Source: Thermomicrobiales bacterium (GTDB lineage: Bacteria > Chloroflexota > Chloroflexia > Thermomicrobiales > UBA6265). From it: a stretch of DNA of 64,000 nt. The notes beneath the pieces were generated by a model, which had not been told where the DNA came from, searched no databases, and worked only from the letters and a program-made list of their open reading frames with translations. Position numbers and translations under genes: made by a program. Shown here piece after piece: positions 13,767 through 56,534 of the stretch (position 1 is the first letter of the stretch; each line of letters begins with the position of its first letter). The DNA lies in NCBI GenBank assembly GCA_020432165.1, contig JAGQGU010000004.1, positions 62,001 to 126,000 of the forward strand, written 5' to 3'.

Positions 13767-14687
13767 TTACTCCCTAGTCAGTTTGTCGAGCTTGTCGTAG
13801 AGGTCTCGCACATGCGACCAATCGGTCAGCAGGTGTAATGTATCAATGAGTAGATAGAGCTTTATGCGCTCTTCCTGGCGATCAAAGGCAAACATCTCTG
13901 GATAGTAGCGCCTGTACCAATCTTTGAGTTGCGCGTAGTCCTCAACGTTCGCATACTTCTCATCCTCTTCGCGCAGGTATTTGTGCGGCTCATCCATGAG
14001 CTTTTCTACAACGAAGAGAGGATAGTCGAGCGCGACCAGGTCCACACTCTCCAGGTCGGTTATCGCCAGAAGCTCAAACTTGTCATTCACCAGGAAATTG
14101 TCAAAGTGAATGTCCCAGTAGACCGGGTGGAGATCGCTATCTTCCAGACTGGATCGACTCCTCTCGACGGTTGTGCGGATCTTGCGTGCGTGGAGATCAG
14201 TCACGGTGCCTCGTGACAGTAGCATGCTGGAAAGAGAGGAAATGCGATCTTCAATGATCGTCTGCCAACTCTCCGAGGCCGTACCTATAGCGCTCGGATC
14301 GATTCGATTGATCTCGGCAAGCGTGGTGGAGATATCGCTGATGAGCTGCTCGCGTTGCTTGTCGGTCGCCATATGCCACCTGCTGCCGAGTGGCTGACCG
14401 TCGACAAACGTCGTGATGATATAACTGCGATCTTGCAGGCTCGTGCTGTCATGGTTTGCCACCAAACTCGGGCGACGAACTTCCAAGTCTGCCTGGAGCA
14501 ATGCGAGTTCTGTCTGGTAGTTCTTCGGATTCGTAGTGTTGAAGAGCTTGATGACGAGATTATCATTTAGTCGGTGAACTTCGTGGGTAAATCCCGCTCC
14601 GATTCTCGAATGTGAATGATATGAGATATTGTGCCGCGCGCAGATCTCCTCTATTGCTGGTGCCGTTAGGGTTGACTCTGTGTTCAT
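13767..14687 (-). CDS. APH-family phosphotransferase (small-molecule kinase type)
   Basis: A 306-residue aminoglycoside-phosphotransferase/choline-kinase fold protein. The start at 14687 (MNTESTL) is preferred to the longer frame. Visible elements are the N-lobe Lys in NLVIKLFN (K47), the hinge FVDGQPLG, the catalytic loop YWDIHFDNFLV with Asp192 and Asn197, and the metal-binding Asp211 in ITDLES. The usual first His of the HGD motif is Tyr-Trp here. Members phosphorylate antibiotics, choline, homoserine or sugars; nothing here tells which. It is divergent from the inositol operon across a 199-base gap. Confidence 0.75.
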   Translation of the reverse strand: MNTESTLTAPAIEEICARHNISYHSHSRIGAGFTHEVHRLNDNLVIKLFNTTNPKNYQTELALLQADLEVRRPSLVANHDSTSLQDRSYIITTFVDGQPLGSRWHMATDKQREQLISDISTTLAEINRIDPSAIGTASESWQTIIEDRISSLSSMLLSRGTVTDLHARKIRTTVERSRSSLEDSDLHPVYWDIHFDNFLVNDKFELLAITDLESVDLVALDYPLFVVEKLMDEPHKYLREEDEKYANVEDYAQLKDWYRRYYPEMFAFDRQEERIKLYLLIDTLHLLTDWSHVRDLYDKLDKLTRE

Positions 14688-14786
14688 TCGATCACACCCT
14701 CTCGTTGATCGTCTCGTTTCATGCTTCAGGGTGAGTGATAACATGATTCGGCCGTTCTGTTGCCGCCAAGGTCACGGATCAACTAC

Positions 14787-14810: not shown

Positions 14811-14839
14811 TTGACGGAACCCTTACCCCTTCATATGAT
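14811..14839 (+). promoter_or_regulatory. Promoter of the inositol operon
   Basis: TTGACG (14811-14816) and TATGAT (14834-14839) are separated by exactly 17 bases, placing transcription start about 40 bases before the iolE ATG. An AAGGTG ribosome site follows. Confidence 0.7.
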
Positions 14840-14886: not shown

Positions 14887-15813
14887 ATGACCAATATCAA
14901 CGGAGCAACCAGTCATCTCCGTATCGCCACCTGTCCGGTTAACTGGAATAACAACGATATCCCGGGGTTCAAACCAGTAACGCCATTCCCGGAGATCCTC
15001 GATCGCATGCACGATGATGGCTATGCGGCGACGGAGTACGATGCATCGTTCGGTAATGATCCTGTACAGGTCTGCGCGCAGATGGATTCGCACGATCTCG
15101 TGCTGACCGGCAGCTACCAGTGGGTCGATTTCCTAACTCACGGTGCCGATGTTTCCGCCTACGAGAACCTGCGACCGACTCTGGCTTTGCTGGCCGAGCT
15201 CGGTTGCCGTCACCTCATCGTCTCGGATTCCCTGCGTCCACATCGGGTCGCATTGGCCGGGCGAGTTCCCGAAGATGGCTCGGAGTCGTTGGATGACGCC
15301 TCCTATGCCAGGATCGCTGCCGGAATCCATGCGGTTGCGACGATGGCTGCCGAGTACGGGATCAAGGTGCACTATCACAATCACGTCGGTTCCTGGATCG
15401 AGGCGCCACACGAGGTTGCAGCACTGCTCGCGCAGCTCGATACATCGTGCGCCGATCTCTGTTTCGATACGGGCCATTACGCCTACGGTGGCGGCAATCC
15501 AGCGCAGTTCATTCAGGACAACATCGCCAAAATCGGCTATCTGCATCTGAAGGATGTCGATACCGATGCTGTGGTCGCCGCCCGCGCCCGGGAGCTCACA
15601 TTCCTGGAGGCATTGCGGGAGTATGTCTTTTCTCCGATCGGTACCGGTTCCGCGGACATCCCCGCGATCCTGTCAGTGTTAGTCGAGAATGAATTCGACG
15701 GCTGGATTGTCGTCGAGCAGGACACCTGCGTCGGTGATCCCACGGAAACAGCACGACAAAATCTCGCCTTTATCGAGCACTGGCTCGAAAATCACCAGGC
15801 CATCGGGAGGTAA
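14887..15813 (+). CDS. iolE: Inosose dehydratase
   Basis: A 308-residue TIM-barrel protein of the IolE/xylose-isomerase-like family. IolE dehydrates scyllo-inosose to 3D-(3,5/4)-trihydroxycyclohexane-1,2-dione. The N-terminus RIATCPVNWNNNDIPG and the internal HYHNHVGSWIE, DLCFDTGHYAYGGG and YLHLKDVD place metal and substrate residues where the family has them. It opens a six-gene operon in which all spacings are at most 10 bases or overlaps. The order E-transketolase-G-B-D lacks the regulator and transporter often seen with iol genes. Confidence 0.92.
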   Translation: MTNINGATSHLRIATCPVNWNNNDIPGFKPVTPFPEILDRMHDDGYAATEYDASFGNDPVQVCAQMDSHDLVLTGSYQWVDFLTHGADVSAYENLRPTLALLAELGCRHLIVSDSLRPHRVALAGRVPEDGSESLDDASYARIAAGIHAVATMAAEYGIKVHYHNHVGSWIEAPHEVAALLAQLDTSCADLCFDTGHYAYGGGNPAQFIQDNIAKIGYLHLKDVDTDAVVAARARELTFLEALREYVFSPIGTGSADIPAILSVLVENEFDGWIVVEQDTCVGDPTETARQNLAFIEHWLENHQAIGR

Positions 15814-15816
15814 TAC

Positions 15817-16692
15817 ATGGCAACTGCATCCGCTCTCCAACGGGAGAGCAGATCGATTTCTGAACTTGAGGGATTGTCGCGACAGGCGCGGCGGCTCATC
15901 CTCGAGTCGGTGCACAAATCAGGAGCAGGGCACATTGGTGGCCCGCTCTCTGTGACTGATCTGCTCGTATCACTCTATTTCGCTGAGCTTCGGTTAGATC
16001 CAAACGATCCGGTCAACGAGCATCGGGACCGCATCATCCTCAGCAAGGGGCACTCCTCGATTGCGCTCTATACGGTGATGGCGCTTCGAGGTTATCTGCC
16101 AGTTGAGGAGCTGGCTACATTCGACCAGATCAACTCGCGCTTGCAGGGGCATCCCGATCTGACTGCGCTGCCTGGGCTGGATATGTCCACGGGTTCGCTG
16201 GGTCAGGGACTCTCCGCCGGTATCGGGATGGCGTTGGGTGCTCGCCTGAAGGGCGACGATTTCCACACCTGGGTGATTTTGGGTGACGGTGAAATTCAGG
16301 AAGGGCAGGTTTGGGAGGCCGCGTTCGTGGCTGCTCGCTACAAGCTCGCCAACCTGACGGCGATTGTCGATGCCAATGGCCTTCCCCAGTTCGGCTGGCC
16401 CGATCCATCTGGTCATACGCGTGAGACACCATTCGATGATCCGGCGGCCAAGTTCCGCGCGTTCGGCTGGAACGTGATCGAAGTGGATGGTCACGATCAC
16501 GCCGCATTGCTGGCAGCCTGGGCAGAAGCCAAGGCATATACAGATGGTCCGACCTGTGTGATTGCTCACACAGTAAAGGGCAAGGGTGTCTCCTTTATGG
16601 AAGGCAACTATCTTTGGCATGCGCAGGTGCCAACGCAGGATGACCTGGATAAGGCTGGGCTGGAGCTTGCGGATCCGGAGGAGCGGTCATGA
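15817..16692 (+). CDS. Transketolase, N-terminal (thiamine-binding) subunit
   Basis: The 291-residue first half of a split transketolase. It has GHIGGPLSVTDLLVSLYF, SKGHSSIALY, and the thiamine-diphosphate motif GDGEIQEGQVWEAA ending in DANGLPQFGW. Split transketolases move a two-carbon ketol group between ketoses and aldoses. It starts 3 bases after iolE and overlaps the second subunit by 4 bases. Its place inside an inositol operon is unusual and suggests a dedicated substrate rather than the pentose phosphate cycle. Family assignment is secure; substrate is inference. Confidence 0.93.
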   Translation: MATASALQRESRSISELEGLSRQARRLILESVHKSGAGHIGGPLSVTDLLVSLYFAELRLDPNDPVNEHRDRIILSKGHSSIALYTVMALRGYLPVEELATFDQINSRLQGHPDLTALPGLDMSTGSLGQGLSAGIGMALGARLKGDDFHTWVILGDGEIQEGQVWEAAFVAARYKLANLTAIVDANGLPQFGWPDPSGHTRETPFDDPAAKFRAFGWNVIEVDGHDHAALLAAWAEAKAYTDGPTCVIAHTVKGKGVSFMEGNYLWHAQVPTQDDLDKAGLELADPEERS

Positions 16693-17645
16693 GCGCAAAT
16701 GATGTGCAGATGAGAGAAGCATGGGGCCAGGGATTGGTTGATCTCGGTGCCCAATACCGCAATCTCGTGGTGCTGGATGGCGATCTCGCAAATTCCACCC
16801 GCGCCGATATGTTCCACACTGCCTATCCGGATCGATTCTTCGAGATGGGTATCGCCGAGCAGAACATGTTGGGTGTAGCGGCTGGTTTGGCCACCACCGG
16901 ATACATCCCCTGGATCAGTACCTTCGCCGCATTCCTGGCCAAGCGGGCGCTCGACCAGATTCGACTGGTCATTGCCCAGCCTGGGCTCAATGTAAAGATG
17001 GCTGGTTCGTATTCCGGCCTTCTCACGAGCAAGACGGGCAAGACCCATCAGTCGGTGGAGGATATCGCGGTCTTCCGGGCGATGCCGCACGTTGTCACGA
17101 TTGCTCCGGCCGATGCGGTCGAGCTGCGGTCGGCAATGGCAGCGATGATGGAGGATGAACGTCCGACCTACATCCGCATCACCCGCGATGCTGGGCCGGT
17201 CGTGGTTCCTGACGGATATGAGTTCGAGATCGGAAAAGCTGTGCTCCTGCGAGATGGTGCCGATATCGGTATCGTCAGCACCGGTGTGCAGACATCTCGG
17301 GCGCTTGCCGCTGCTGACTTGCTCGAAATCGCCGGTGTCTCTGCGTCCGTTCTCCACGTACCCACGATCAAGCCCATTGATGTCGATGCGATCGTCGCAC
17401 TTGCTGATCGCACCAATGGCATCGTGAGCGCGGAGGATCACTCGATCATCGGCGGTCTTGGCGGTGCCGTGGCGGAAGTTCTGGCCGAGCATCGACCAAC
17501 ACGTATGCGTCGCATCGGTATTCAGGATACCTTCGGTGAATCTGGACCAAACGATGCCCTGCTTGAGAAGTACGGATTGACTCCCAATCACATTGTTGAG
17601 GCCGTCAACGACCTCCTGGCTCTTACCTCGGTGACAACTCGATGA
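16689..17645 (+). CDS. Transketolase, C-terminal subunit
   Basis: The 318-residue partner of the preceding gene, with the pyrimidine-binding domain (MGIAEQNMLGVAAGLA, containing the Glu that activates thiamine), the HTGKT-like segment GKTHQSVEDIAVF, and the C-terminal transketolase domain (residues about 185-310). The ATGA overlap at each end (with the N subunit and with iolG) shows tight co-translation, which argues that the transketolase is part of inositol breakdown. See the finding on a possible kinase-free route. Confidence 0.93.
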   Translation: MSANDVQMREAWGQGLVDLGAQYRNLVVLDGDLANSTRADMFHTAYPDRFFEMGIAEQNMLGVAAGLATTGYIPWISTFAAFLAKRALDQIRLVIAQPGLNVKMAGSYSGLLTSKTGKTHQSVEDIAVFRAMPHVVTIAPADAVELRSAMAAMMEDERPTYIRITRDAGPVVVPDGYEFEIGKAVLLRDGADIGIVSTGVQTSRALAAADLLEIAGVSASVLHVPTIKPIDVDAIVALADRTNGIVSAEDHSIIGGLGGAVAEVLAEHRPTRMRRIGIQDTFGESGPNDALLEKYGLTPNHIVEAVNDLLALTSVTTR

Positions 17646-18673
17646 CCACACGACCACGTATTGCACTAATCGGTTGCGGCCGCATCGGCCAGGTGCACGC
17701 TCGCAATCTCGCTTCGTTGCGCGAACTCTGTGATTTCGCTATCGCTGCCGATTTTTTCCTTGAAGCAGCTGAGAAGACTGCGTCCGCATATGGCGTGCCC
17801 CGCGCGATGTCTGATGGTGAAGCAGCGATTGCTGATCCAGAGATCGATGCCGTCATCATCGCGTCTTCGACGGAGACGCATGCACCCTATATCGAACTTG
17901 CCTCGCACTATGGCAAAAGCATTTTCACTGAGAAGCCGATCGCTCTCGATCTGGACGCGACGGATCGGGCTTTGACTGCCGCCGATAGCGCTGGTGTGCG
18001 ATTACAGGTTGGTTTCCAACGCCGCTTTGATCCCGGTTATGTCGCCGCCAAAAACGCCATCCTGAATGGGGAATTAGGTGCGGTGGAGATGATTCACGAT
18101 GTCATGCGTGATCCTCAGCCACCACCAGCCGCCTATATCGCCCAATCCGGTGGTCTTTACCGCGATATGGCGATTCATAACTTCGATTCGGTGCGTTGGT
18201 TGATGGGAGAGGACCCGATCGAGATCTTCGTTATGGCCGGGGCGTTGTTTAGCGACGATATCCGCGCCGCCAACGATGTCGATACCAGCGTGGTCACGTT
18301 GCGCTTCCCCTCGGGCGCTATCGCGACAATCGAGAATAGCCGTCGCTCCGGCTTCGGCTATGACGTTCGCACTGAGATCTTTGGATCCGGTGGTGGCCTG
18401 ATGGTCGGTGAGTCACGCGATCTTCCGATTCGTCGCTATACATCCGCTGGCGTCATCGAGGATCATCAATACTTCTTCCTGGAGCGATTCCGCGATGCCT
18501 ACCGCCAGGAGATGATTTCCTTCCTGACCGCGATCGGAGAAGACGCAGCTGTGAGCGTGACGGGGGAGGACGGCCGCACGGCGCTGCGTCTCGCGATGGC
18601 GGCCGAGGAATCGCTGCGACAGGGGAGACCGGTTTCTCTCCTTCCTACGGAGGTGCTTCATGCCCAATCCTGA
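17642..18673 (+). CDS. iolG: Inositol 2-dehydrogenase (Gfo/Idh/MocA family)
   Basis: A 343-residue NAD-dependent dehydrogenase that oxidises myo-inositol to scyllo-inosose, the first step of the pathway. The Rossmann motif is IALIGCGRIGQVHARNL. The catalytic EKP is seen in FTEKPIALDLDAT, and the substrate region has QVGFQRRFDPGY and the DxxxH-type motif RDMAIHNFDSVRWL. It overlaps both neighbours. Gfo/Idh enzymes vary in substrate, but the operon fixes the likely role as IolG. Confidence 0.92.
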   Translation: MTTRPRIALIGCGRIGQVHARNLASLRELCDFAIAADFFLEAAEKTASAYGVPRAMSDGEAAIADPEIDAVIIASSTETHAPYIELASHYGKSIFTEKPIALDLDATDRALTAADSAGVRLQVGFQRRFDPGYVAAKNAILNGELGAVEMIHDVMRDPQPPPAAYIAQSGGLYRDMAIHNFDSVRWLMGEDPIEIFVMAGALFSDDIRAANDVDTSVVTLRFPSGAIATIENSRRSGFGYDVRTEIFGSGGGLMVGESRDLPIRRYTSAGVIEDHQYFFLERFRDAYRQEMISFLTAIGEDAAVSVTGEDGRTALRLAMAAEESLRQGRPVSLLPTEVLHAQS

Positions 18674-19550
18674 TGAAATGATCATCACATCCGCCACTCC
18701 GAATGGTTCGGGTCAGGTTCTGCAGGTTACGCCCGAGAGTGCTGGCTGGACTTATGTTGGATTAGCCGTGGAGCAGATCGCTCCCGGTGATAGTTGGGAG
18801 TTTGCTGCTCCAGACGACGAGATCTGCATCGTGCCGCTGCGTGGCAGCGCGGTGATCACATCTGACCATGGGGAATGGACCGTTTCCCGGTCCGGAACGA
18901 TGTTCGATGGCAAGCCGACATGCCTCTATTTGCCGGTGGGAAGTAGTTTTGCTGCCAGCAGTGAAGCAGGTGCTGAACTGGCCGTCACTTCGGCTCGCGC
19001 CGAGGTGACGTATCCGCCGAAACTCATCACACCAGATGAGATTGATGTGGAGATTCGCGGAGCGGGCAATGCAGCGCGTCAAATCAGCCACATCATCAAG
19101 CCCGGTTTCCCTGCCGACAAGTTGCTGGTCGTTGAAGTCTTCACACCGTCAGGCAATTGGTCCAGCTTCCCGCCGCACAAACACGATGTTAGTCGGATGC
19201 CGGAAGAAGCTATCCTCGAAGAGATTTACTACTACCGCATCAATCCGGATGATGGTTTCGCACTGCAGCGGCTCTATTTCGCGGATGGCTCGTTCGATCA
19301 TGCCTGGACGATCCACGACGGCGATCTATTGTTGGTGCCACAGGGATACCACGCCTTCGCCGTGGCGCACGGTTACACCGGCTACTATCTCAACATCCTG
19401 GCGGGGCCGGAAGAAGTGAGAACTATGCAGCCAGCTGACGATCCACGTTATGCCTGGGTGCGATCCACCTGGAACGATGACATGAACGATGGCTTGTCCT
19501 TCTGGCAGGACATCGACGACCGCATCAATGGGGATGCGGGTAAGAAGTAA
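18660..19550 (+). CDS. iolB: 5-deoxy-glucuronate isomerase
   Basis: A 296-residue double-cupin enzyme. IolB converts 5-deoxy-D-glucuronate to 5-dehydro-2-deoxy-D-gluconate. The C-terminal cupin has the metal motif region GNWSSFPPHKHD, then EEIYYYRINPDDGFALQRLY, and the HDGDLLLVPQGYH loop, all as in characterised IolB. The start has GGAGG upstream within the end of iolG, which it overlaps by 14 bases. Confidence 0.94.
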   Translation: MPNPDEMIITSATPNGSGQVLQVTPESAGWTYVGLAVEQIAPGDSWEFAAPDDEICIVPLRGSAVITSDHGEWTVSRSGTMFDGKPTCLYLPVGSSFAASSEAGAELAVTSARAEVTYPPKLITPDEIDVEIRGAGNAARQISHIIKPGFPADKLLVVEVFTPSGNWSSFPPHKHDVSRMPEEAILEEIYYYRINPDDGFALQRLYFADGSFDHAWTIHDGDLLLVPQGYHAFAVAHGYTGYYLNILAGPEEVRTMQPADDPRYAWVRSTWNDDMNDGLSFWQDIDDRINGDAGKK

Positions 19551-19560
19551 GGTTCACATC

Positions 19561-21435
19561 ATGGCAACCATCCGTGTTACCGCCGCTCAGGCGATCGTTC
19601 GTTACCTCTCCGCCCAGTACACCTCGCGTGATGGTGTGGAGCAGCCGCTCTTTGCGGGCATGTTCGGCATTTTCGGCCACGGAAATGTCACCGGTATCGG
19701 TCAGGCATTGGAGGAGTACAAGGATCTCCTGACCTATTACCGACCGCAGAACGAGCAGGCGATGGTTCACACCGCCGTCGCTTACGCCAAAATGAAGAAC
19801 CGCCTGCAGACATTCGCTTGCACCACCAGTGTTGGACCAGGTGCCACAAACATGGTCACCGGTGCAGCTCTCGCGACCGTAAATCGACTGCCAGTGTTGC
19901 TGTTGCCCGGCGATATCTTTGCCAATCGGCGACCGCATCCGGTATTGCAGCAGCTGGAGCAGCCATACTCGCAGGACATCAGCGTCAACGATGCCTTCCG
20001 CTCGGTCTCGCGCTATTTCGATCGTGTCTATCGACCGGAGCAGTTGCTATCGTCTTTGCCTGAGGCGATGCGTGTGCTGACCGATCCGGCAGAGACAGGT
20101 GCCGTTACCTTGGCGATGCCCGAGGATGTGCAGACTGAAGCCTACGACTTCCCGGAGGAATTCTTCGCCAAGCGCGTCTGGTATGTACGTCGACCATTGC
20201 CTGATGCCGATGCACTGGCCGAAGCGGCTCGTCTGATCGCTTCCGCTGAACGACCGTTGGTCATCAGCGGTGGCGGCACTATCTACTCCGACGCCAGCGA
20301 AGCGCTGGACGATTTCTCGAAGGCGCTTGGAGTACCAGTCTCTGAGACACAAGCCGGCAAAGGGGTTATCCCCTGGGATGAGCCGTGGAACGTCGGCCCA
20401 ATCGGGGGCAACGGCGGTATCGCTGCCAACCGTCTGGCGAACGACGCCGATCTCGTTATCGCGGTCGGAACCAGGTTGGGCGATTTCGCGACATCGTCGA
20501 AATCGGCATTCCAGAATCCGAAGGTTCGTTTTGTTGGCATCAATGTCACCGGTATGGATGCATACAAGATGGGCGCACTTTCGCTGATGGGTGATGCCCG
20601 CGCAACGCTGCAGGCGCTGCAAGAACTCGTGCTGGAAGAGGGTATCGATCGCGATGTCACTGCTTATGGCCAGGAAATCGCTTCCCTCAAGCAGGAATGG
20701 GATGCGCTGGTCGGCGATCAGCGCGCATTGAATCTCGCGGCAGAGACCACGCAGGCGCAGATCATCGGGCTGGTCAACGAGGCTGCTGGTCCGCAGGATA
20801 CCGTCGTTTGCGCTGCCGGTGGGATGCCGGGCGATCTGCTGAAGCTGTGGCGCACCGAGGACCCGAAGGGGTATCACGTTGAGTATGGCTTCTCCTGCAT
20901 GGGCTACGAGATCGCTGGTGGCCTTGGCGTGAAGATGGCGGCACCAGAGCGTGAGGTCTTCGTCATGGTTGGCGATGGCTCCTACCTCATGCTGCACACG
21001 GAGATTGTTACCGCCGTACAGGAAGGCATCAAGCTCATCATCGTGCTGGTGGATAACGGTGGTTTCCAGTGCATCCGCGGTTTGCAAATGGCATCGGGAT
21101 CGCCGTCGTTCGGAAACGAACTCCGCTTCCGCGATGAGGCAACTGACACACTAACCGGACCCTATGTACCAGTTGATTTCGTGAAGAACGCCGAATCTCT
21201 TGGCGCACGCGCCATAGCCGCCAACGGTCCGGATGAGTTCCGGCAGGCGCTGGAAGAGGCCAAGGCGGAGACCAGAACGACTATGGTCTATGTGCAGGTC
21301 AATCCGGACGAGCGTGTTCCGAACTACGAGGGCTGGTGGGATGTGCCCATCGCTGAGGTCAGCGAAGAGGCCTCCGTCAATGCGAAACGTGCCCAGTATG
21401 AGGACGATATTCGCAAGCAGCGCTGGTTCGGATAG
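19561..21435 (+). CDS. iolD: 3D-(3,5/4)-trihydroxycyclohexane-1,2-dione hydrolase
   Basis: A 624-residue thiamine-diphosphate enzyme that opens the inositol-derived ring to give 5-deoxy-glucuronate. It carries the acetolactate-synthase-like fold: FGIFGHGNVTGIGQALEE and the catalytic Glu in RPQNEQAMVH, the middle domain with ISGGGTIYSDASEAL, and the C-terminal thiamine motif VGDGSYLMLHTEI with DNGGFQCI. The start at 19561 is 10 bases after iolB; a longer frame overlapping iolB was rejected. It is the last gene of the operon and is followed by a terminator hairpin. Confidence 0.95.
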   Translation: MATIRVTAAQAIVRYLSAQYTSRDGVEQPLFAGMFGIFGHGNVTGIGQALEEYKDLLTYYRPQNEQAMVHTAVAYAKMKNRLQTFACTTSVGPGATNMVTGAALATVNRLPVLLLPGDIFANRRPHPVLQQLEQPYSQDISVNDAFRSVSRYFDRVYRPEQLLSSLPEAMRVLTDPAETGAVTLAMPEDVQTEAYDFPEEFFAKRVWYVRRPLPDADALAEAARLIASAERPLVISGGGTIYSDASEALDDFSKALGVPVSETQAGKGVIPWDEPWNVGPIGGNGGIAANRLANDADLVIAVGTRLGDFATSSKSAFQNPKVRFVGINVTGMDAYKMGALSLMGDARATLQALQELVLEEGIDRDVTAYGQEIASLKQEWDALVGDQRALNLAAETTQAQIIGLVNEAAGPQDTVVCAAGGMPGDLLKLWRTEDPKGYHVEYGFSCMGYEIAGGLGVKMAAPEREVFVMVGDGSYLMLHTEIVTAVQEGIKLIIVLVDNGGFQCIRGLQMASGSPSFGNELRFRDEATDTLTGPYVPVDFVKNAESLGARAIAANGPDEFRQALEEAKAETRTTMVYVQVNPDERVPNYEGWWDVPIAEVSEEASVNAKRAQYEDDIRKQRWFG

Positions 21436-21440
21436 AGCGC

Positions 21441-21475
21441 ACAGGGATCGCCCCTCAGGCGGTCCCTGTTTCGTT
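21441..21475 (+). terminator. Terminator of the inositol operon
   Basis: A 12-bp stem (21441-21452 with 21458-21469, two G-T pairs) with a 5-base loop is followed by TTCGTTTGT, 5 bases after the iolD stop. The convergent comEC stop codon lies inside the hairpin. Confidence 0.75.
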
Positions 21476-22915
21476 TGTAGGGTTGGGCAAACGTCGCAGC
21501 CAGCGATCGCTTTCGCCGCTAATCAGCCATATCCACAGGGCTATCGGAATCCAGAGGATGAAAGCGGCGAGTGGTGTGAGCTCATCCATGCGGATCGATC
21601 CTGCCAACGGTAGGAGGGTGAGTTGGTGCACTGTGTCCAGTGCAAGGTTCAGCACGACGGTGGGGATGATCGCCACGAACGGAGCCACAAAGGGCAGGAA
21701 TACCGCCACAATCGCGAAGAGGTAGCAGAGTGGAAACGCGATATCCATGATCGGATTCAGAAGTACGTTGGCTGCCACGGTTATCGGTGACCAACTGCCA
21801 AATGTCATCAGAATCAATGGCATCGTGGCAAACGAAGCGACTACTGATGCACGCGCGATCTGCCATGCGGCTCCCCGCAGGCTGTGGCTCAGCTCTGTTG
21901 GCAACGTCAGACAGATCGCCATTGAGGCAATGGCTGAGAGCCAGTAGCCGACCGTTTGCACCACCCATGGATTCCAGAGTGCCATCGCTCCCAATGTCAG
22001 GGAGAGAATGGTGATGGGATCAGGTCGACGACTGACGTGGCGTCCCAATACCATCAATGTCGCGAAGATCGCCGCTCGCAGAGCCGGCGGTTCCAGTCCG
22101 ACGAAGATGGCATAGCTCCAGACAACGAGGATGAGGATCGCATGGAAACTCGTTCTCCCTCGTGGAGAGTGTGGTTGGTACCACATGCTCAAAAACCCGA
22201 TGATCAGCGCCACATTCTGACCACTGACTGCGGTGACATGGCTCGTGCCGGTCTCGAGGAAGTCGGCTTCGGCCTGATCGGATAGCGCTGAGTCATCACC
22301 GGTGATGATGCCAGTTGCCAATGCGCCTGCGTCTCCCGGAATGTATTGCTGAATTCGATCTACCACCGCCTGGTTTGCGCTGGCCATCCACTGCCATTGC
22401 GAGAGCGCCGGAGAAACAACCGACGCTTTCCAGGAGATCGCGGAACCAATAGCCCGCTGCGATTCGACATAGTTGCGGTAACCGGGAGTGAGTGCCGTGA
22501 GATCGTCGAAGCGCCAATCAACATGGATTGTCGCGCCACGAGCAACCGGTGGATCCTGGGCCGGTACGTAAACAATCACTCGACCAGTAGCAGGGATACA
22601 TTGCTCTTCAATGCAAACCTCACTCAGTTCCATTACCAGACGCTGACCATTGGCGGATGGTCGAGGAAACTCTGCTATTCTGCCAGTCGCGCTGGTAGAG
22701 GCCTTGATGGAGGTCACATCTATTGATAACTGCGCCTGCGGGGAGCGCCAGGCACCAATGGCAGCGATGATGATGCATGCGACAACAAGTGCTGTTTGCC
22801 AGCGACGCTCGATTATGGCAATGGTGGAGAGCGTTGCTATTACCAGCAGCAACGCCGGCCAACCGAACCAGACACCGGCTAACGCGGCCAAACCCAGGGC
22901 AATCCCGTTAGTCAC
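21455..22915 (-). CDS. comEC: ComEC/Rec2-type competence protein lacking the C-terminal hydrolase domain
   Basis: A 486-residue polytopic membrane protein. The GTG start overlaps the end of comEA. It has N-terminal helices, an OB-like extracellular domain (about 65-175) and the competence domain with GIITGDDSALSDQAEADFLETG and THVTAVSGQNVALI-type signature (here TSHVTAVSGQN) near 195-240. ComEC forms the channel for single-stranded DNA in transformation. Many homologues continue into a metallo-beta-lactamase domain of about 250 residues; here the protein ends after the last helix. With comEA it forms a minimal uptake operon. Confidence 0.9.
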   Translation of the reverse strand: MTNGIALGLAALAGVWFGWPALLLVIATLSTIAIIERRWQTALVVACIIIAAIGAWRSPQAQLSIDVTSIKASTSATGRIAEFPRPSANGQRLVMELSEVCIEEQCIPATGRVIVYVPAQDPPVARGATIHVDWRFDDLTALTPGYRNYVESQRAIGSAISWKASVVSPALSQWQWMASANQAVVDRIQQYIPGDAGALATGIITGDDSALSDQAEADFLETGTSHVTAVSGQNVALIIGFLSMWYQPHSPRGRTSFHAILILVVWSYAIFVGLEPPALRAAIFATLMVLGRHVSRRPDPITILSLTLGAMALWNPWVVQTVGYWLSAIASMAICLTLPTELSHSLRGAAWQIARASVVASFATMPLILMTFGSWSPITVAANVLLNPIMDIAFPLCYLFAIVAVFLPFVAPFVAIIPTVVLNLALDTVHQLTLLPLAGSIRMDELTPLAAFILWIPIALWIWLISGESDRWLRRLPNPTNETGTA

Positions 22916-29086: not shown

Positions 29087-30226
29087 GTGAAGGTTTCATG
29101 CCTTCAGGAACAACTACAGCGTGGCCTCAGTCGCGTAAGCCGTGCTGTATCGACGCGATCAACCCTGCCGGTGCTGAGTAATGTGTTGCTCTCCACTGAT
29201 CGTGGGCGATTGCGCATTGCCGCTACCGACATGGCGGTGGGTGTCACCACGTGGATCGATGCTGTGATTGAGGAGGAGGGTGCACTCACGGTTGATGCCC
29301 GCCTGCTGGGTGAGTTCGTGAACACACTTCCGGCCGGCGATGTCTCGCTGACCTCCGATTCCGTACGCATGAGCATGACCGTCCAGTCCGGCCGTGATAA
29401 AGCCACGATCAACGGTCTCGATGCCGACGATTTTCCGGTGCTGCCATCCGTCTCTGGCGATGGTTTCACCGTGGATATCAATGGCCAGCGCTTGCGTGAG
29501 GCTATCACCATGGTCGAGTTCTCGGCCGCTACAGATGAAAGCCGACCAGTGCTTGCCGGCGTCCTCACGCGCTTTGACGGTGATACGATGACGCTCGCCT
29601 CGGCTGACGGTTTCCGTATGGCCGTGATCGATCAGCCACTGGAGACACCGGTGGATGGTCGCCACGATTTCATCGTGCCGGCGCGCGCTTATCGCGAGTT
29701 TGCACGCATCATCGGTGATTTCGATGAACCAGTGCGTCTTAGCCTTACGGCCAATCGTTCGCAGCTGGTGGCGCGCGTAGGTGATACCGAGTGGGTCAGC
29801 AGTCTTATAGACGGCACCTTCCCTGATGTGAAGCAGATCGTGCCGAAGGAGACCAGCACACGTATCGATCTGGGGCGAGAATCCCTTCTGCAGGCAGTGC
29901 GCCGCAGCAGCTTTTTTGCCCGCGAGAATAACGATGTGGTCTATCTCACCATCCAGCCAGGTGCCGATGAGTTGACGCCCGGTAGCGTAGAGATTAGCGC
30001 CACAGCCGCTGAGCGCGGGAATAGCCAGAGTTATGTCGATGCGAGTGTGACCGGTACGGAAATGCGCGTGGCCTTCAATAGCCATTACCTCACCGATGTC
30101 CTCGCGGTTCTGCGGACCGGGCAGGTCATGATTGGCCTGAATGGACCAAATGCCGCCGGGATCATTCGTGCCAGCGATCACCAAAACTGTACGCACGTGA
30201 TCATGCCGATGGTTATTGGCGGATAG
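29087..30226 (+). CDS. dnaN: DNA polymerase III sliding clamp (beta subunit)
   Basis: A 379-residue clamp with the three repeated beta-clamp domains. Typical pieces are RAVSTRSTLPVLSNVLLS and ATDMAVGV at the start, DDFPVLP, DESRPVLAGV and ADGFRMAV in the middle, and the terminal NCTHVIMPMVI for the canonical YxVMPM(R/K)L. The GTG start has GCGAGGTGA upstream. It is followed by recF as in the classic dnaA-dnaN-recF order, but dnaA is not upstream here. The 240 bases before it hold the opposite promoter and no clear DnaA boxes. Confidence 0.95.
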   Translation: MKVSCLQEQLQRGLSRVSRAVSTRSTLPVLSNVLLSTDRGRLRIAATDMAVGVTTWIDAVIEEEGALTVDARLLGEFVNTLPAGDVSLTSDSVRMSMTVQSGRDKATINGLDADDFPVLPSVSGDGFTVDINGQRLREAITMVEFSAATDESRPVLAGVLTRFDGDTMTLASADGFRMAVIDQPLETPVDGRHDFIVPARAYREFARIIGDFDEPVRLSLTANRSQLVARVGDTEWVSSLIDGTFPDVKQIVPKETSTRIDLGRESLLQAVRRSSFFARENNDVVYLTIQPGADELTPGSVEISATAAERGNSQSYVDASVTGTEMRVAFNSHYLTDVLAVLRTGQVMIGLNGPNAAGIIRASDHQNCTHVIMPMVIGG

Positions 30227-30239
30227 GCATTCGGAGCGA

Positions 30240-31421
30240 ATGCACGTCTCGAAAATCACGCTCGATCAATTTCGACGATACGACCATCTCGGCATGGATA
30301 TCCCCGAGGCCGGGCTTCGGATCGTCGGACGCAATGCTTCCGGGAAGACCAGCTTTCTGGAAGCATTGTTGTTGTTGGCTACAACCAAATCACCGCGAGT
30401 CAGTACCGAACGAGAACTGATTCGTTGGGGTAGTGGTGTGGATTACGGCCTGCAACCATATGCACGTATCTCCGCCAGAGTTCATACTGCGAATGGTGAG
30501 CATACGTTGGAGATTCGCCTGGAGGCGTCCGCCGCCAGCGATTCCGTTACGCGCAAAACCTGCCTGCTGGATGGCAAGAGCGTGCGGGCCGCAACACTTG
30601 TCGGTGTGCTCAAGGTTGTCGAATTCTCTCCGGAAGATGTTCAGCTTGTTACCGGACCACCTGCGGATAGACGACGGCAACTTGATATCCTCATCTCCCA
30701 AATCGATCGTCACTACATGCAGAGCAGCAGTCGGTATCAGAAGGTATTGACGCAGCGTAATGGTCTGCTCAAGGCATTTCAGCGTGATGGTGTGAGCTGG
30801 CGGAGCATTCCGGCAGTTGAGCAACTCTCGTTCTGGGACGATGAGTTGGCATTGCATGGTGCTCGTATCGTGGCCAAACGGGTTGAGGTTATCACGGCAC
30901 TGACCGAACGGGTGCAACATTGGTCGCGGGAGTTGTTGCGCGATCATCAGATGTCGTTGACTCTGACCTCCGGTATACCGCACGTTGATCGCTTGCTGAC
31001 CGTCCGTGGTGATGCGCCGGATCTGGAATCACACATTCGCGATACGTTCGCGCGGGAGTTGGAATCGGCAAGGCAGGAAGACTTCCGTCGCGGTGTGACC
31101 TCGATTGGACCACAGAGGGACGACATCACCATGACGATCGATGATCGGTCTCTGGCGGCCTATGGATCGCGAGGACAGCAGCGGCTCGGCGTCATTGCGC
31201 TCAAATTGAGCGAGGCCGATGTGATCCGTCAGCTCACCGGTGAGTTACCGGTCCTGCTGCTTGACGATGCTCTGAGCGAGCTTGATGAGCATCATAGTGC
31301 CTGGCTGCTGGAGAGTCTGGCTGCAGGTGACCGCCAACTGCTCCTTACATCGGCAGTCGATAGCACGCTGGATCGATCCGAACTGGCGCACCTGGAAGTG
31401 ATGTCACTCGAAGGCGATTGA
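30240..31421 (+). CDS. recF: DNA replication and repair protein RecF
   Basis: A 393-residue SMC-like ABC ATPase that loads RecA at gaps with RecO and RecR. Walker A GRNASGKTS is at 30-38, the ABC signature is SRGQQRLGVIALKLSE, and Walker B is PVLLLDDALSELD. The start at 30240 has CGGAGCG upstream; a TTG at 30216 overlapping dnaN is less likely. It lies 13 bases after dnaN. Confidence 0.94.
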   Translation: MHVSKITLDQFRRYDHLGMDIPEAGLRIVGRNASGKTSFLEALLLLATTKSPRVSTERELIRWGSGVDYGLQPYARISARVHTANGEHTLEIRLEASAASDSVTRKTCLLDGKSVRAATLVGVLKVVEFSPEDVQLVTGPPADRRRQLDILISQIDRHYMQSSSRYQKVLTQRNGLLKAFQRDGVSWRSIPAVEQLSFWDDELALHGARIVAKRVEVITALTERVQHWSRELLRDHQMSLTLTSGIPHVDRLLTVRGDAPDLESHIRDTFARELESARQEDFRRGVTSIGPQRDDITMTIDDRSLAAYGSRGQQRLGVIALKLSEADVIRQLTGELPVLLLDDALSELDEHHSAWLLESLAAGDRQLLLTSAVDSTLDRSELAHLEVMSLEGD

Positions 31422-53128: not shown

Positions 53129-54094
53129 ATGCAGCAGGCTCATCAATCTGTGGCAGGTTCGGGATTCGTTGAACCGCCGCCACAGGAGAAACGTTTCACC
53201 TGGCCCACCGCCTACTGGTATCTTTTGCCAGTGGCACTCTCGGCCCTCGTCTTTACCATCGGGCCTTTCTTCTACACCTTCTACATCTCCTTCACCAACT
53301 ACCATCGCGTTTTTCGAGCTCGCGATTACGATTGGGTCGGGCTCGAAAACTACCGGCGAGCGCTTTCTTCTGGTGGCGAACTCTTTCCGGTGCTTGGCTG
53401 GACCTTTGCGTTCATGTTCATCAGTACCGCACTCAACGTTTTTGGCGGTCTGATTCTTGCGCTCCTCCTCAACAACAAAGAGCTTCATGAGCGCAATATC
53501 TATCGCACTCTCTTGATCATTCCATGGGCGCTACCGGGCATCCTCACCATTCAGGTGTGGTCCGGTCTTTTTGGTTTGTCTGGTCCCTTTAATCTCATTC
53601 TCGAGAACATGGGCTTTGAGCGCGTCCGCTGGCTCATGGAGGAACAGCCCGCCAGAGCGGCCCTGCTGATAGCCAACTTCTGGTTGAGTTATCCCTTCTT
53701 CATGACAGTGGGTCTGGCGGCGTTGCAAGCCATTCCGCGTGATCTCTATGAGGTCGCCGATCTCGATGGGGCCGGTTCTTCGCAGATCTTCCGCGATATC
53801 ACCTGGCCCTTCCTGATTGCTTCGGTCACTCCCCTCCTCATCACGCAGCTCGCTTTTCAGTTCAACAATGCTGGACTCATCATCTTGCTTACCAACGGCA
53901 ATCCGCAAGCCTATCCTGGTGCACGGTATGGTGTCACCGACACGCTCGCAAGCTTCTCCTACAAACTGATTAACGGTCAGGGCAATGGTGACATGGGCTA
54001 TGCGGCCGCATATGGTGTCTTCACCTTCCTCATCATCGCGACCTTCACGTTGCTGAGTTCCAAAGTGACCAATGCATTCAAGGAGGCAAACTAA
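53129..54094 (+). CDS. Maltodextrin-type ABC permease (MalF-like)
   Basis: A 321-residue inner-membrane permease with six or more helices (WYLLPVALSALVFTIGPFF, TFAFMFISTALNVFGGLILALLL in part). The EAA loop that contacts the ATPase reads PRDLYEVADLDGAGSSQIF near residues 208-226. The start at 53129 follows GGGAGGAGAAG. It is joined to the next permease by a one-base stop-start overlap. No ATPase gene is in the operon. Confidence 0.9.
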   Translation: MQQAHQSVAGSGFVEPPPQEKRFTWPTAYWYLLPVALSALVFTIGPFFYTFYISFTNYHRVFRARDYDWVGLENYRRALSSGGELFPVLGWTFAFMFISTALNVFGGLILALLLNNKELHERNIYRTLLIIPWALPGILTIQVWSGLFGLSGPFNLILENMGFERVRWLMEEQPARAALLIANFWLSYPFFMTVGLAALQAIPRDLYEVADLDGAGSSQIFRDITWPFLIASVTPLLITQLAFQFNNAGLIILLTNGNPQAYPGARYGVTDTLASFSYKLINGQGNGDMGYAAAYGVFTFLIIATFTLLSSKVTNAFKEAN

Positions 54095-55032
54095 TGGCTG
54101 GTATTTCCACGGTTAGTAGCGCTCCTGTTAATGCCCAGGTAGCTACCAAGAAAGCATTTGTCGAATCCGAGCTGCAGAAGACGGACTGGCGTCACAGCGC
54201 CAAATTCCAGAGTTCACTGCGCACATGGCTGATCCGTATCATCATCTGGATCGTGTTGATCGTCGTCATGTTTCCGGTCGTCTACGTGGTGATGACAAGC
54301 TTCAAGGGTGACGGTAAGGGACTTAACTCCCAAACACTCTTCCCCCGCGAATATACGCTCGATCTCTATCGGCAGCTGTTACGGCCGGGATCGAACTTCC
54401 TGCGCTGGGTGCAGAACTCGCTCATCATGGGTGTGACCGCGGGCGCATTGCAGGTCATCTTCTCCACATTTGGTGGATACGCCTTCAGTCGCATGAAGTT
54501 TGCCGGGCGGAAGCATGGCATCCTCTTCTTGCTGATTATCCAGATGCTGCCAATCAACATGCAGGCCGTGGCGTATTACAAGATGCTCGGCGCGGTTGGT
54601 CTCACCAACACTCGCATGGGAATTATCCTGATCTTTGGTCTTGGTGGTTCGGCACTCTCGGTGTGGTTGATGAAGAACTTCATCGATTCCATTCCACGCG
54701 ATCTGGATGAGGCATCGTACCTGGATGGTGGTACCCAGTGGACTACATTCTGGCGTGTCATCTTCCCGCTCGTGCAGCCAATGTTGGTGGCTCAGTTTAT
54801 CTTCGGCTTTATCGGTGTTTACAACGAGTATGTGCTCACCAGTATCCTCATTTTCGATGATCGCCTCTATCCGTTGGGCGTTGGTGTACGCACATTCAGT
54901 ACCGCCGTCAGCACATCGTGGACGCTCTTCTGTGCGGCCGCTGTGCTCGGGTCAGTGCCGATTCTCATTATCTTCTTCGCAGCCCAGCGCTTCCTGGTGG
55001 AAGGTCTCACACGCGGCGCGGTGAAGGGCTAA
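54094..55032 (+). CDS. Maltodextrin-type ABC permease (MalG-like)
   Basis: A 312-residue permease with a basic 45-residue cytoplasmic head and six helices. The EAA loop is PRDLDEASYLDGGTQWTTFW. It forms the heterodimeric channel with the preceding protein. The segment GVYNEYVLTSILIF and the end RFLVEGLTRGAVKG are typical of MalG relatives. Confidence 0.9.
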   Translation: MAGISTVSSAPVNAQVATKKAFVESELQKTDWRHSAKFQSSLRTWLIRIIIWIVLIVVMFPVVYVVMTSFKGDGKGLNSQTLFPREYTLDLYRQLLRPGSNFLRWVQNSLIMGVTAGALQVIFSTFGGYAFSRMKFAGRKHGILFLLIIQMLPINMQAVAYYKMLGAVGLTNTRMGIILIFGLGGSALSVWLMKNFIDSIPRDLDEASYLDGGTQWTTFWRVIFPLVQPMLVAQFIFGFIGVYNEYVLTSILIFDDRLYPLGVGVRTFSTAVSTSWTLFCAAAVLGSVPILIIFFAAQRFLVEGLTRGAVKG

Positions 55033-55049
55033 TAGCGCGAAAGGTTCGC

Positions 55050-56534
55050 ATGACGACTGAGATGAACAATCACCCCCGGTTCCCTCTGGAACCGGGTAAG
55101 GTGACCGCCCCAACGTGGGTAAAAGACGCCGTTTTCTACCAGATTTTTTCGGATCGATTCGCGAAATCTGCACGCGTCAACAAGCCAGCGGGTCTTGAGG
55201 ATTGGGATACCGATCCCACCACTTTCGGCTATAAGGGTGGTGACCTTCTCGGAGTGGCAGAACATCTGGACTACATTCAGGAACTTGGTATCAATGCGCT
55301 CTACCTGAATCCGATCTTTCAGAGTGCCAGCAATCACCGCTATCACACCCACGATTACTTCCGCATCGATCCTCTCTTGGGAGGAGATGCCGCCTTCGAT
55401 GAGATGTTGGCGGCTTGTCATGAGCGCGGTATTCGCGTGGTGCTGGATGGCGTGTTCAATCACGCCAGTCGTGGTTTTTTTCAGTTCAACGATGTGCTGG
55501 AGAATGGTGAATCGTCACCGTGGCGCGACTGGTTTGTCTTCGAGAAGTTCCCGCCAAACGCCTATGATCACGGCAAAAAGCCCGAATATCAGGCGTGGTA
55601 CGGCCTGCATGCGCTTCCGAAGTTCAATACCGACAATCCGGAAGTGCGCGAATTTATCATGCAAGTCGGCGAATATTGGCTGCGCAAAGGAATAGATGGC
55701 TGGCGTCTGGATGTGCCGCATGAGATCACCACACCGGGTTTCTGGGAGGAGTTCCGGATACGGTGTCGTACGATCAATCCCGAATGCTATATCACTGGTG
55801 AGATCTGGGATCCTGCACCCGAGTTTCTGCGTGGCGATCAGTTCGACTCGGTCATGAACTATGTCTTCACTGAAGCTGTGCTGGGGTTCGTGGGTCGTGG
55901 TCACATCGTGAAAGAACACCAGGAAGATCGTGGCTACAATCCGTGGCCAGGTTTCACCGGCAAGGAGTATGCCGATCGTATTGACAAGCTCCTGGCACTC
56001 TACGACTGGAATGTAACGAACGCCCAGATGAATTTGCTGGACTCGCACGACACACCGCGGGCATTAACGCTGATGAGCGATGATGTGCGCAGCCTGGAAC
56101 TTGGCTATTTGCTGCTCCTCACCTACCCAGGCGCTCCCAGCATCTACTATGGCTCCGAGATCGGCGTTGATGGTGGTATGCCGGATAAATGGGCCCGACG
56201 AACGATGCCCTGGAGCAAACCGGATACATGGAACACCTACCTACTGAGTAATGTGAAGAGCCTGGTGTCCCTTCGTCATGCGCATCCCGCGTTGCGAGAT
56301 GGCGATTATCAGGGCCTCTGGGCTTCGGCAATGAGCTACGCCTTCCTTCGATCTCACCATGACGGTACATATATCATCGCCGTCAATACTGGGGCCGAGC
56401 GTGATACCGCTCCACTTGCGGTCCAACAGGCGACCGAACTCCTCTTTGCCATTGGTGATGCCGAGATGACTACCTCGGGTGAACTCGCGCTCGGAGCGCA
56501 GTCCGCTGGTATCTGGAAGGTGATGAATGGATAG
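55050..56534 (+). CDS. Cytoplasmic GH13 alpha-glucosidase/cyclomaltodextrinase-like enzyme
   Basis: A 494-residue GH13 enzyme without signal peptide. The start at 55050 follows GCGAAAGG; a longer frame overlapping the permease was rejected. Conserved regions: I DGVFNH, II GWRLDVPHE with the nucleophile Asp, III YITGEIWD with the acid Glu, IV LLDSHDTPR. The opening WVKDAVFYQIFSDRFA and the lack of an N-terminal CBM34 domain suggest a neopullulanase/cyclomaltodextrinase relative that degrades imported maltodextrins. It overlaps the next GH13 gene by 8 bases. Confidence 0.9.
   Translation: MTTEMNNHPRFPLEPGKVTAPTWVKDAVFYQIFSDRFAKSARVNKPAGLEDWDTDPTTFGYKGGDLLGVAEHLDYIQELGINALYLNPIFQSASNHRYHTHDYFRIDPLLGGDAAFDEMLAACHERGIRVVLDGVFNHASRGFFQFNDVLENGESSPWRDWFVFEKFPPNAYDHGKKPEYQAWYGLHALPKFNTDNPEVREFIMQVGEYWLRKGIDGWRLDVPHEITTPGFWEEFRIRCRTINPECYITGEIWDPAPEFLRGDQFDSVMNYVFTEAVLGFVGRGHIVKEHQEDRGYNPWPGFTGKEYADRIDKLLALYDWNVTNAQMNLLDSHDTPRALTLMSDDVRSLELGYLLLLTYPGAPSIYYGSEIGVDGGMPDKWARRTMPWSKPDTWNTYLLSNVKSLVSLRHAHPALRDGDYQGLWASAMSYAFLRSHHDGTYIIAVNTGAERDTAPLAVQQATELLFAIGDAEMTTSGELALGAQSAGIWKVMNG

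Follow-up and report, generated by a model that had tools for sequence, protein, structure and literature searches.

In a 64,000-nt stretch of a Thermomicrobiales bacterium genome (contig JAGQGU010000004.1, positions 62,001 to 126,000 of the forward strand; hereafter the window), the six genes iolE, tktN, tktC, iolG, iolB and iolD are packed into a single compact unit (14887-21435, as defined by open reading frames (ORFs) and family profiles), in which the two subunits of a split transketolase are encoded among genes for myo-inositol catabolism. The unit has no gene for the kinase IolC or the aldolase IolJ, and, judging from the sequence, we think it likely that the split transketolase uses 5-dehydro-2-deoxy-D-gluconate (DKG), the product of the upper inositol steps, as its ketol donor. 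This would probably be an undescribed route, giving xylulose-5-phosphate and a four-carbon acid aldehyde. What we rate as new here is the joining, in an undescribed way, of the known upper steps of inositol degradation and known ketol-transfer chemistry. In the literature searched, which was mainly open-licence and included few subscription journals, no description of such a route was found, whether under transketolase in inositol catabolism or under malate semialdehyde.

The operon and the genome around it

The genes of the unit, together with the active-site loop discussed below, are as follows.

14887-15813, + strand: iolE, probable 2-keto-myo-inositol (inosose) dehydratase (TIGR04379, 182 bits, below the cut-off of 290; PF01261)
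15817-16692, + strand: tktN, transketolase N-subunit, thiamine diphosphate-binding domain (PF00456, 177.8 bits)
16689-17645, + strand: tktC, transketolase C-subunit, pyrimidine-binding and C-terminal domains (PF02779, PF02780)
17010-17048, + strand: altered active-site loop YSGLLTSKTGKTH, TktC residues 108-120, aligned without gaps to HDSIAVGEDGPTH of the full-length transketolase of the same genome
17642-18673, + strand: iolG, inositol 2-dehydrogenase (TIGR04380, 385 bits, cut-off 355)
18660-19550, + strand: iolB, 5-deoxy-glucuronate isomerase (TIGR04378, 309.5 bits, cut-off 205)
19561-21435, + strand: iolD, trihydroxycyclohexane-1,2-dione acylhydrolase (TIGR04377, 926.7 bits, cut-off 715)

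IolG, IolB and IolD were called on scores over the NCBIfam equivalog cut-offs, and the best NCBIfam match of TktN was the transketolase model PRK05899.2-5, spanning positions 9-283. Despite its score below the cut-off, we counted IolE as probably present because the solved proteins closest to it (9zmu and 3cny) are IolE and because it is a member of the operon. The iolD ORF opens at 19489, within iolB, and the ATG at 19561 is the likely start since the TIGR04377 match starts only at residue 29 of the longer frame and a 10-base gap to iolB results. The spacing along the unit from iolE to iolD is then +3, -4, -4, -14 and +10 bases, and the ORFs and family scores confirm an initial annotation of this DNA that had described one operon with 3-10 base gaps or overlaps. 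Besides the split transketolase all members are iol genes, and no sulfosugar genes adjoin the transketolase.

Absences were checked across the whole assembly (3.2 Mb in 105 contigs, 98.3% complete). IolC had no match in the genome at E<=1e-40, with a best score of 130 bits among the classified PfkB proteins against a cut-off of 300. Neither an ordinary IolJ (the sole PF01116 match, at 45.6 bits, was to a 489-aa frame) nor the DUF2090 aldolase domain was found in the genome, and none of its four aldehyde dehydrogenases exceeded the cut-off for IolA/MMSDH (best 346 versus 448.5 bits). The initial annotation had called iolC, iolJ and iolA missing, which is borne out genome-wide by these family cut-offs, and the wider search that it proposed returned neither iolC nor iolJ. 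Its further suggestion, to look for a malate-semialdehyde dehydrogenase, succeeded only in part, as the four aldehyde dehydrogenases are present but none is assignable to malate semialdehyde; for one of them no solved relative was found within E<=1e-140. Since several IolC-positive genomes are also without PF01116, we dropped the absence of IolJ as a discriminator. A separate full-length transketolase is encoded on another contig (C87), and we therefore regard the split transketolase as an extra, operon-bound enzyme and not the housekeeping one.

Predicted chemistry and the altered active site

IolG, IolE, IolD and IolB are known to end at DKG, which IolB forms from 5-deoxy-D-glucuronate, and by family assignment the four enzymes of the window would take myo-inositol to this compound. 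Drawn out by hand from C6, DKG is a 1-hydroxy-2-ketose with the C3 hydroxyl on the left and the C4 hydroxyl on the right (D-threo, compare xylulose and fructose), followed by CH2 and COO-, and relative to xylulose-5-phosphate it is a carboxylate isostere, CH2-COO- standing where the phosphate ester has CH2-O-PO3. Redone in this way, the earlier stereochemical argument for a D-threo donor proved right. The split transketolase would cleave DKG between the ketose C2 and C3 and pass the two-carbon unit to an aldose phosphate, most likely glyceraldehyde-3-phosphate, which would yield xylulose-5-phosphate. In the fragment CHO-CH(OH)-CH2-COO- left by cleavage at this bond, the hydroxyl stands on the right, so that the released four-carbon product would be (R)-3-hydroxy-4-oxobutanoate (malate semialdehyde), and the carbon balance holds (C6 + C3 = C5 + C4). 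Oxidation of this aldehyde gives D-malate on paper; the operons of relatives described below suggest that malate semialdehyde would be oxidised in this way and that the D-malate would be decarboxylated to pyruvate where a TIGR02089 enzyme is present. The split transketolase would thus stand in for the kinase IolC and the aldolase IolJ, no ATP would be needed for activation, and IolA would not be needed because no malonate semialdehyde would arise.

A close precedent exists for such a donor. E. coli transketolase reportedly uses 5-ketogluconate, yielding tartaric semialdehyde, and an R358I/H461S/R520Q variant improves the cleavage (PMC12016104). These compounds are, respectively, the 2-hydroxy analogue of DKG and the hydroxy analogue of malate semialdehyde.

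Alignment of TktC with the full-length transketolase of the genome revealed an altered active-site loop, with the canonical H...EDGPTH reading Y...KTGKTH in the window's protein. In E. coli TktA numbering the changes are H461Y (Tyr108), E468K (Lys115), D469T (Thr116) and P471K (Lys118), with H473 retained as His120. H461 is a transketolase residue associated with the substrate phosphate. The D469T substitution alters specificity in the E. coli enzyme (PMC3657141). The phosphate-binding positions R358, S385 and R520 are retained as TktC Arg9, Ser36 and Arg166 (equivalence read off alignments), which are present across the aligned C-subunits with few exceptions at Ser36, and the catalytic histidines are retained too, TktN His39, His79, His112 and His268 and TktC His120 aligning with histidines of the genome's full-length transketolase. 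Among solved structures, TktC has its best match in the C-chain of the split transketolase from Carboxydothermus (6yaj, with a profile E of 5e-110). The loss of two acidic residues together with an added lysine beside the substrate would fit a donor that ends in a carboxylate.

The altered loop is common to the iol-linked clade. On a tree computed with the motif columns removed, the canonical Asp was lost in a single change, and split transketolases with a canonical EDGxSHQ-type loop sit across one branch from the altered clade. Linkage to iol genes required eight changes on the same tree, at least six of them on well-supported branches, compared with 14.2 when shuffled; because the linkage was gained or lost several times, hitch-hiking is an unlikely explanation for it.

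Recurrence in other genomes and alternative explanations

We surveyed 400 genomes of the phylum for IolB (109 positive, 60 neighbourhoods retrieved) and found further loci by a contig search with the C-subunit alignment. Altered-type tktN-tktC genes stood beside at least two iol genes in five Chloroflexota/Thermomicrobiota loci (L106, L107, L108, L109 and L113), in the phylum-survey loci L067, L259, L096 and L065, in two Deinococcota loci from Thermaceae metagenome-assembled genomes (MAGs; L143 and L147), and in L153 (Verrucomicrobiota), L129 (labelled Pseudomonadota) and L157 (labelled Bacillota). The survey of other genomes that the initial annotation had called for therefore uncovered the operon in MAGs labelled to several phyla. 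L067, from a genome of two contigs that is 99% complete, has an uninterrupted seven-gene run, tktN-tktC-iolG-iolB-iolD-iolG-iolE, with no iolC, and across the iol-linked loci iolG, iolE, iolD and iolB recur together with the transketolase. As to cultured carriers, a search of a plasmid collection gave only split transketolases of 40-47% identity.

The presence of IolC and of the altered transketolase was then compared, with TktC called altered-type when it reached at least 430 bits with the A1 profile. Among 80 IolB-positive genomes of the phylum, 25 had IolC over the cut-off, 13 had an altered-type TktC and none had both (hypergeometric 0.0046, for genomes that are related and hence not independent). 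No IolC over the cut-off was found in the genomes with an iol-linked transketolase. Among 21 further genomes with the altered transketolase, IolC exceeded the cut-off in one (L156), which does not have the full tkt-iol operon. Its locus (L156:7261-17633) has altered tktN-tktC between a transaldolase-family gene on the upstream side and an iolB-like gene downstream, and the strong IolC is encoded elsewhere in that genome.

The two Deinococcota operons also bear on the lower half of the proposed route. Their order is transporter genes, iolD, iolE, a dehydrogenase, tktN, tktC, iolG and iolB, where the PF00180 protein between iolE and tktN scored 499.4 and 502.1 bits against TIGR02089 (cut-off 470.4) and has the tartrate dehydrogenase/decarboxylase 3flk as its nearest solved protein. 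Members of the TIGR02089 tartrate dehydrogenase type act on D-malate, and the enzyme's presence in two related operons supports the proposed route because it matches the predicted D-malate. L108, which is related to the window, has 54-67% identical counterparts of the transporter genes before iolD in L143, oriented divergently from its operon, so that an ABC transporter flanks both L108 and the Deinococcota operons. In L116 (Chloroflexota), the genes divergent from tktN-tktC encode a protein scoring 541.7 bits against TIGR02089 and a dehydrogenase of the succinate-semialdehyde type, with no iol genes on the contig. Conversion of malic semialdehyde to D-malate and on to pyruvate has been demonstrated in the breakdown of carnitine, involving a DmlA orthologue and a dehydrogenase for which succinate-semialdehyde dehydrogenase served as the model (PMC11353897). 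We discarded the PF00180 gene that follows tktC in L129 as a candidate for the D-malate step, as it scored over the LeuB cut-off. Near altered-type or AGATH-type transketolase genes in L138, L148, L164 and L065 there are MMSDH-like aldehyde dehydrogenases, which may oxidise the four-carbon semialdehyde.

Several observations weigh against DKG as the donor or against parts of the route. Of the 80 IolB-positive genomes, 42 have neither IolC over the cut-off nor the altered transketolase, and because of this and the kinship of the genomes the mutual exclusion is modest evidence. In G313 an IolC-like gene (260.9 bits) adjoins one copy of iolB, with tktN-tktC-iolG-iolB some 6 kb away, and close relatives of the enzyme in L110, L111, L112 and L114 are away from iol genes. 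No TIGR02089 enzyme was found in the window's genome, where PF00180 proteins are only of the LeuB and IDH types, and three of its aldehyde dehydrogenases that were examined had no informative neighbours. At the genome level TIGR02089 was not clearly enriched (9 of 21 genomes with the transketolase versus 7 of 25). Most loci come from MAGs, whose phylum labels carry a binning risk, although gene order within a contig is independent of the phylum label. As a separate matter, the 42 genomes with neither gene may mean that the phylum has more variants of inositol degradation or employs IolB for other purposes.

One alternative is that DKG still undergoes phosphorylation and aldol cleavage, by a PfkB-family kinase and an aldolase whose genes lie elsewhere and escape current models, with the split transketolase an auxiliary isozyme that moves triose and pentose phosphates. 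The genome does have nine PfkB-family matches, including the fructokinase-like L005 (the protein with 130 bits against the IolC model) and the KDG-kinase-like L007, and unrecognised aldolases must exist given that some IolC-positive genomes of the phylum lack PF01116. We nevertheless regard this explanation as unlikely, since no kinase gene lies inside the operon and a housekeeping transketolase is already encoded in the genome, and a generic isozyme would leave unexplained the repeated iol linkage, the lost canonical active-site residues and the TIGR02089 protein in related operons.

Less probable still, in our estimate, is that the transketolase uses some other carboxylate-ended ketose, the operon serving a related cyclitol or uronate with the Iol enzymes in a side role. 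The altered-loop family does occur at many non-iol loci with other neighbours (Gemmatimonadota, Acidimicrobiia and Salinicoccus) and so has other substrates, but the iol-linked loci repeat exactly the four enzymes known to end at DKG, and the shared ABC transporter flanking the L108 and Deinococcota operons also speaks against a different substrate. That a chance neighbourhood or an assembly artefact placed the transketolase in the operon could be entertained because the window is a single MAG contig and some close relatives of the enzyme have no iol genes as neighbours; this explanation is highly improbable and already contradicted by recurrence, given that genes of the unit overlap by 4 bases and that independent assemblies, among them the two-contig genome and MAGs of other phylum labels, have the same genes. 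Collectively, the ketol-transfer reading put forward in the initial annotation, with DKG as the donor, gains support from the recurrence of the linkage, the lack of IolC, the active-site change, the TIGR02089 protein in two operons and the 5-ketogluconate precedent.

Surroundings, related loci and known systems

Sites that may bound the unit were noted on both sides.

14811-14839, + strand: promoter-like site upstream of iolE, TTGACG and TATGAT separated by 17 nt (10 of 12 consensus matches)
21441-21469, + strand: intrinsic-terminator-like hairpin closing the unit, 12 pairs, 8 of them GC, with the tail TTCGTTTGTA

The hairpin with its T-rich tail starts 5 bases past iolD. Promoter-like and hairpin sites in the region are no commoner than in shuffles, and it is their apt position alone that suggests a role as signals. 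Both flanking genes are oppositely oriented; the one at 13767-14744 encodes an APH-like kinase, the one at 21455-22915 a ComEC-like protein. Further along the window, two genes of the alpha-amylase family preceded by one for a transport permease (54094-58305) look like a cluster for the use of alpha-glucans or oligosaccharides. At 29087-31421 the gene for the beta subunit of DNA polymerase III precedes one of the RecF/SMC type, a neighbourhood of a kind often seen close to a replication origin.

We also noted altered-type transketolases at loci of other kinds. Seven Acidimicrobiia-type loci (L133, L134, L137, L140, L144, L146 and L148) have an altered transketolase (TGKTHL) and no iol genes, with a small cupin protein, an SDR dehydrogenase and a metallo-beta-lactamase-fold protein as neighbours; L137 and L146 also have a gene nearest to the tartrate/D-malate dehydrogenase query, possibly reflecting another sugar-acid route. 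Near-identical altered-type loci appear under both Gemmatimonadota and Latescibacterota (L122, L123, L124, L126 and L174), which suggests binning or naming trouble or a very recent transfer, and the L122 group, which had looked informative, was set aside because no pathway could be read from its neighbours, a PF02615 dehydrogenase and TPR proteins. In the named strain Salinicoccus sp. YB14-2 (L136:4415-16182), a TRAP transporter, altered tktN-tktC, an iron-type alcohol dehydrogenase and an aldehyde dehydrogenase lie in one run, which may make this locus suitable for experiments on the wider family. A tentative generalisation, to which we give somewhat less than even weight, is that split transketolases with the altered TGKTH loop form a family acting on carboxylate ketoses, with DKG as the substrate in inositol operons and other keto-acids elsewhere; two-carbon units would go to pentose phosphates, and four-carbon semialdehyde acids to D-malate or tartrate for TIGR02089-type dehydrogenases. 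Of several kinase-free routes for sugar acids, all undescribed, inositol catabolism would then simply be the easiest to recognise.

If DKG is indeed the donor, inositol could be degraded without ATP activation, an aldolase or malonate semialdehyde, with direct entry into the pentose phosphates and a four-carbon acid as the second product. A transketolase clade with a defined active-site signature would acquire a natural substrate, and pathway calls would be corrected for genomes scored inositol-negative owing to a missing iolC. The reading makes sharp predictions, namely DKG-dependent formation of xylulose-5-phosphate and of D- rather than L-malate, and a natural enzyme converting a 5-keto acid to a four-carbon semialdehyde would be useful to makers of tartaric acid.

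The window shares with the Bacillus-type myo-inositol pathway (IolG, IolE, IolD, IolB, IolC, IolJ and IolA) the first four steps to DKG, but its operon has a split transketolase in place of the kinase, the aldolase and the malonate-semialdehyde dehydrogenase. The Thermotoga-type alternative inositol pathway uses the enzymes IolM, IolN and IolO, whereas the window has all four upper Bacillus-type enzymes. SqwGH, of the sulfo-transketolase route of sulfoquinovose degradation, reportedly acts on an unphosphorylated ketose with a terminal anion (6-deoxy-6-sulfofructose), the two-carbon unit entering the pentose phosphate pool. SqwGH is described as a two-subunit transketolase (PMC11659671, PMC9594981), and the window's enzyme resembles it in having two subunits and a predicted anion-ended donor, here a carboxylate derived from inositol, so that the proposed route would be a carboxylate counterpart to the sulfo-transketolase route. 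The cleavage of 5-ketogluconate by E. coli transketolase is an activity of a housekeeping enzyme that engineering improved (PMC12016104), whereas the window has a natural, dedicated operon. With carnitine catabolism (PMC11353897) the predicted lower half is alike, but the aldehyde there comes from carnitine and here, if we are right, from inositol. Finally, the split transketolase of Carboxydothermus hydrogenoformans (6yaj, 6yak; PMC7661550) has the same two-subunit architecture but retains the canonical EDGASHQ loop, which reads KTGKTHQ in the enzyme of the window.

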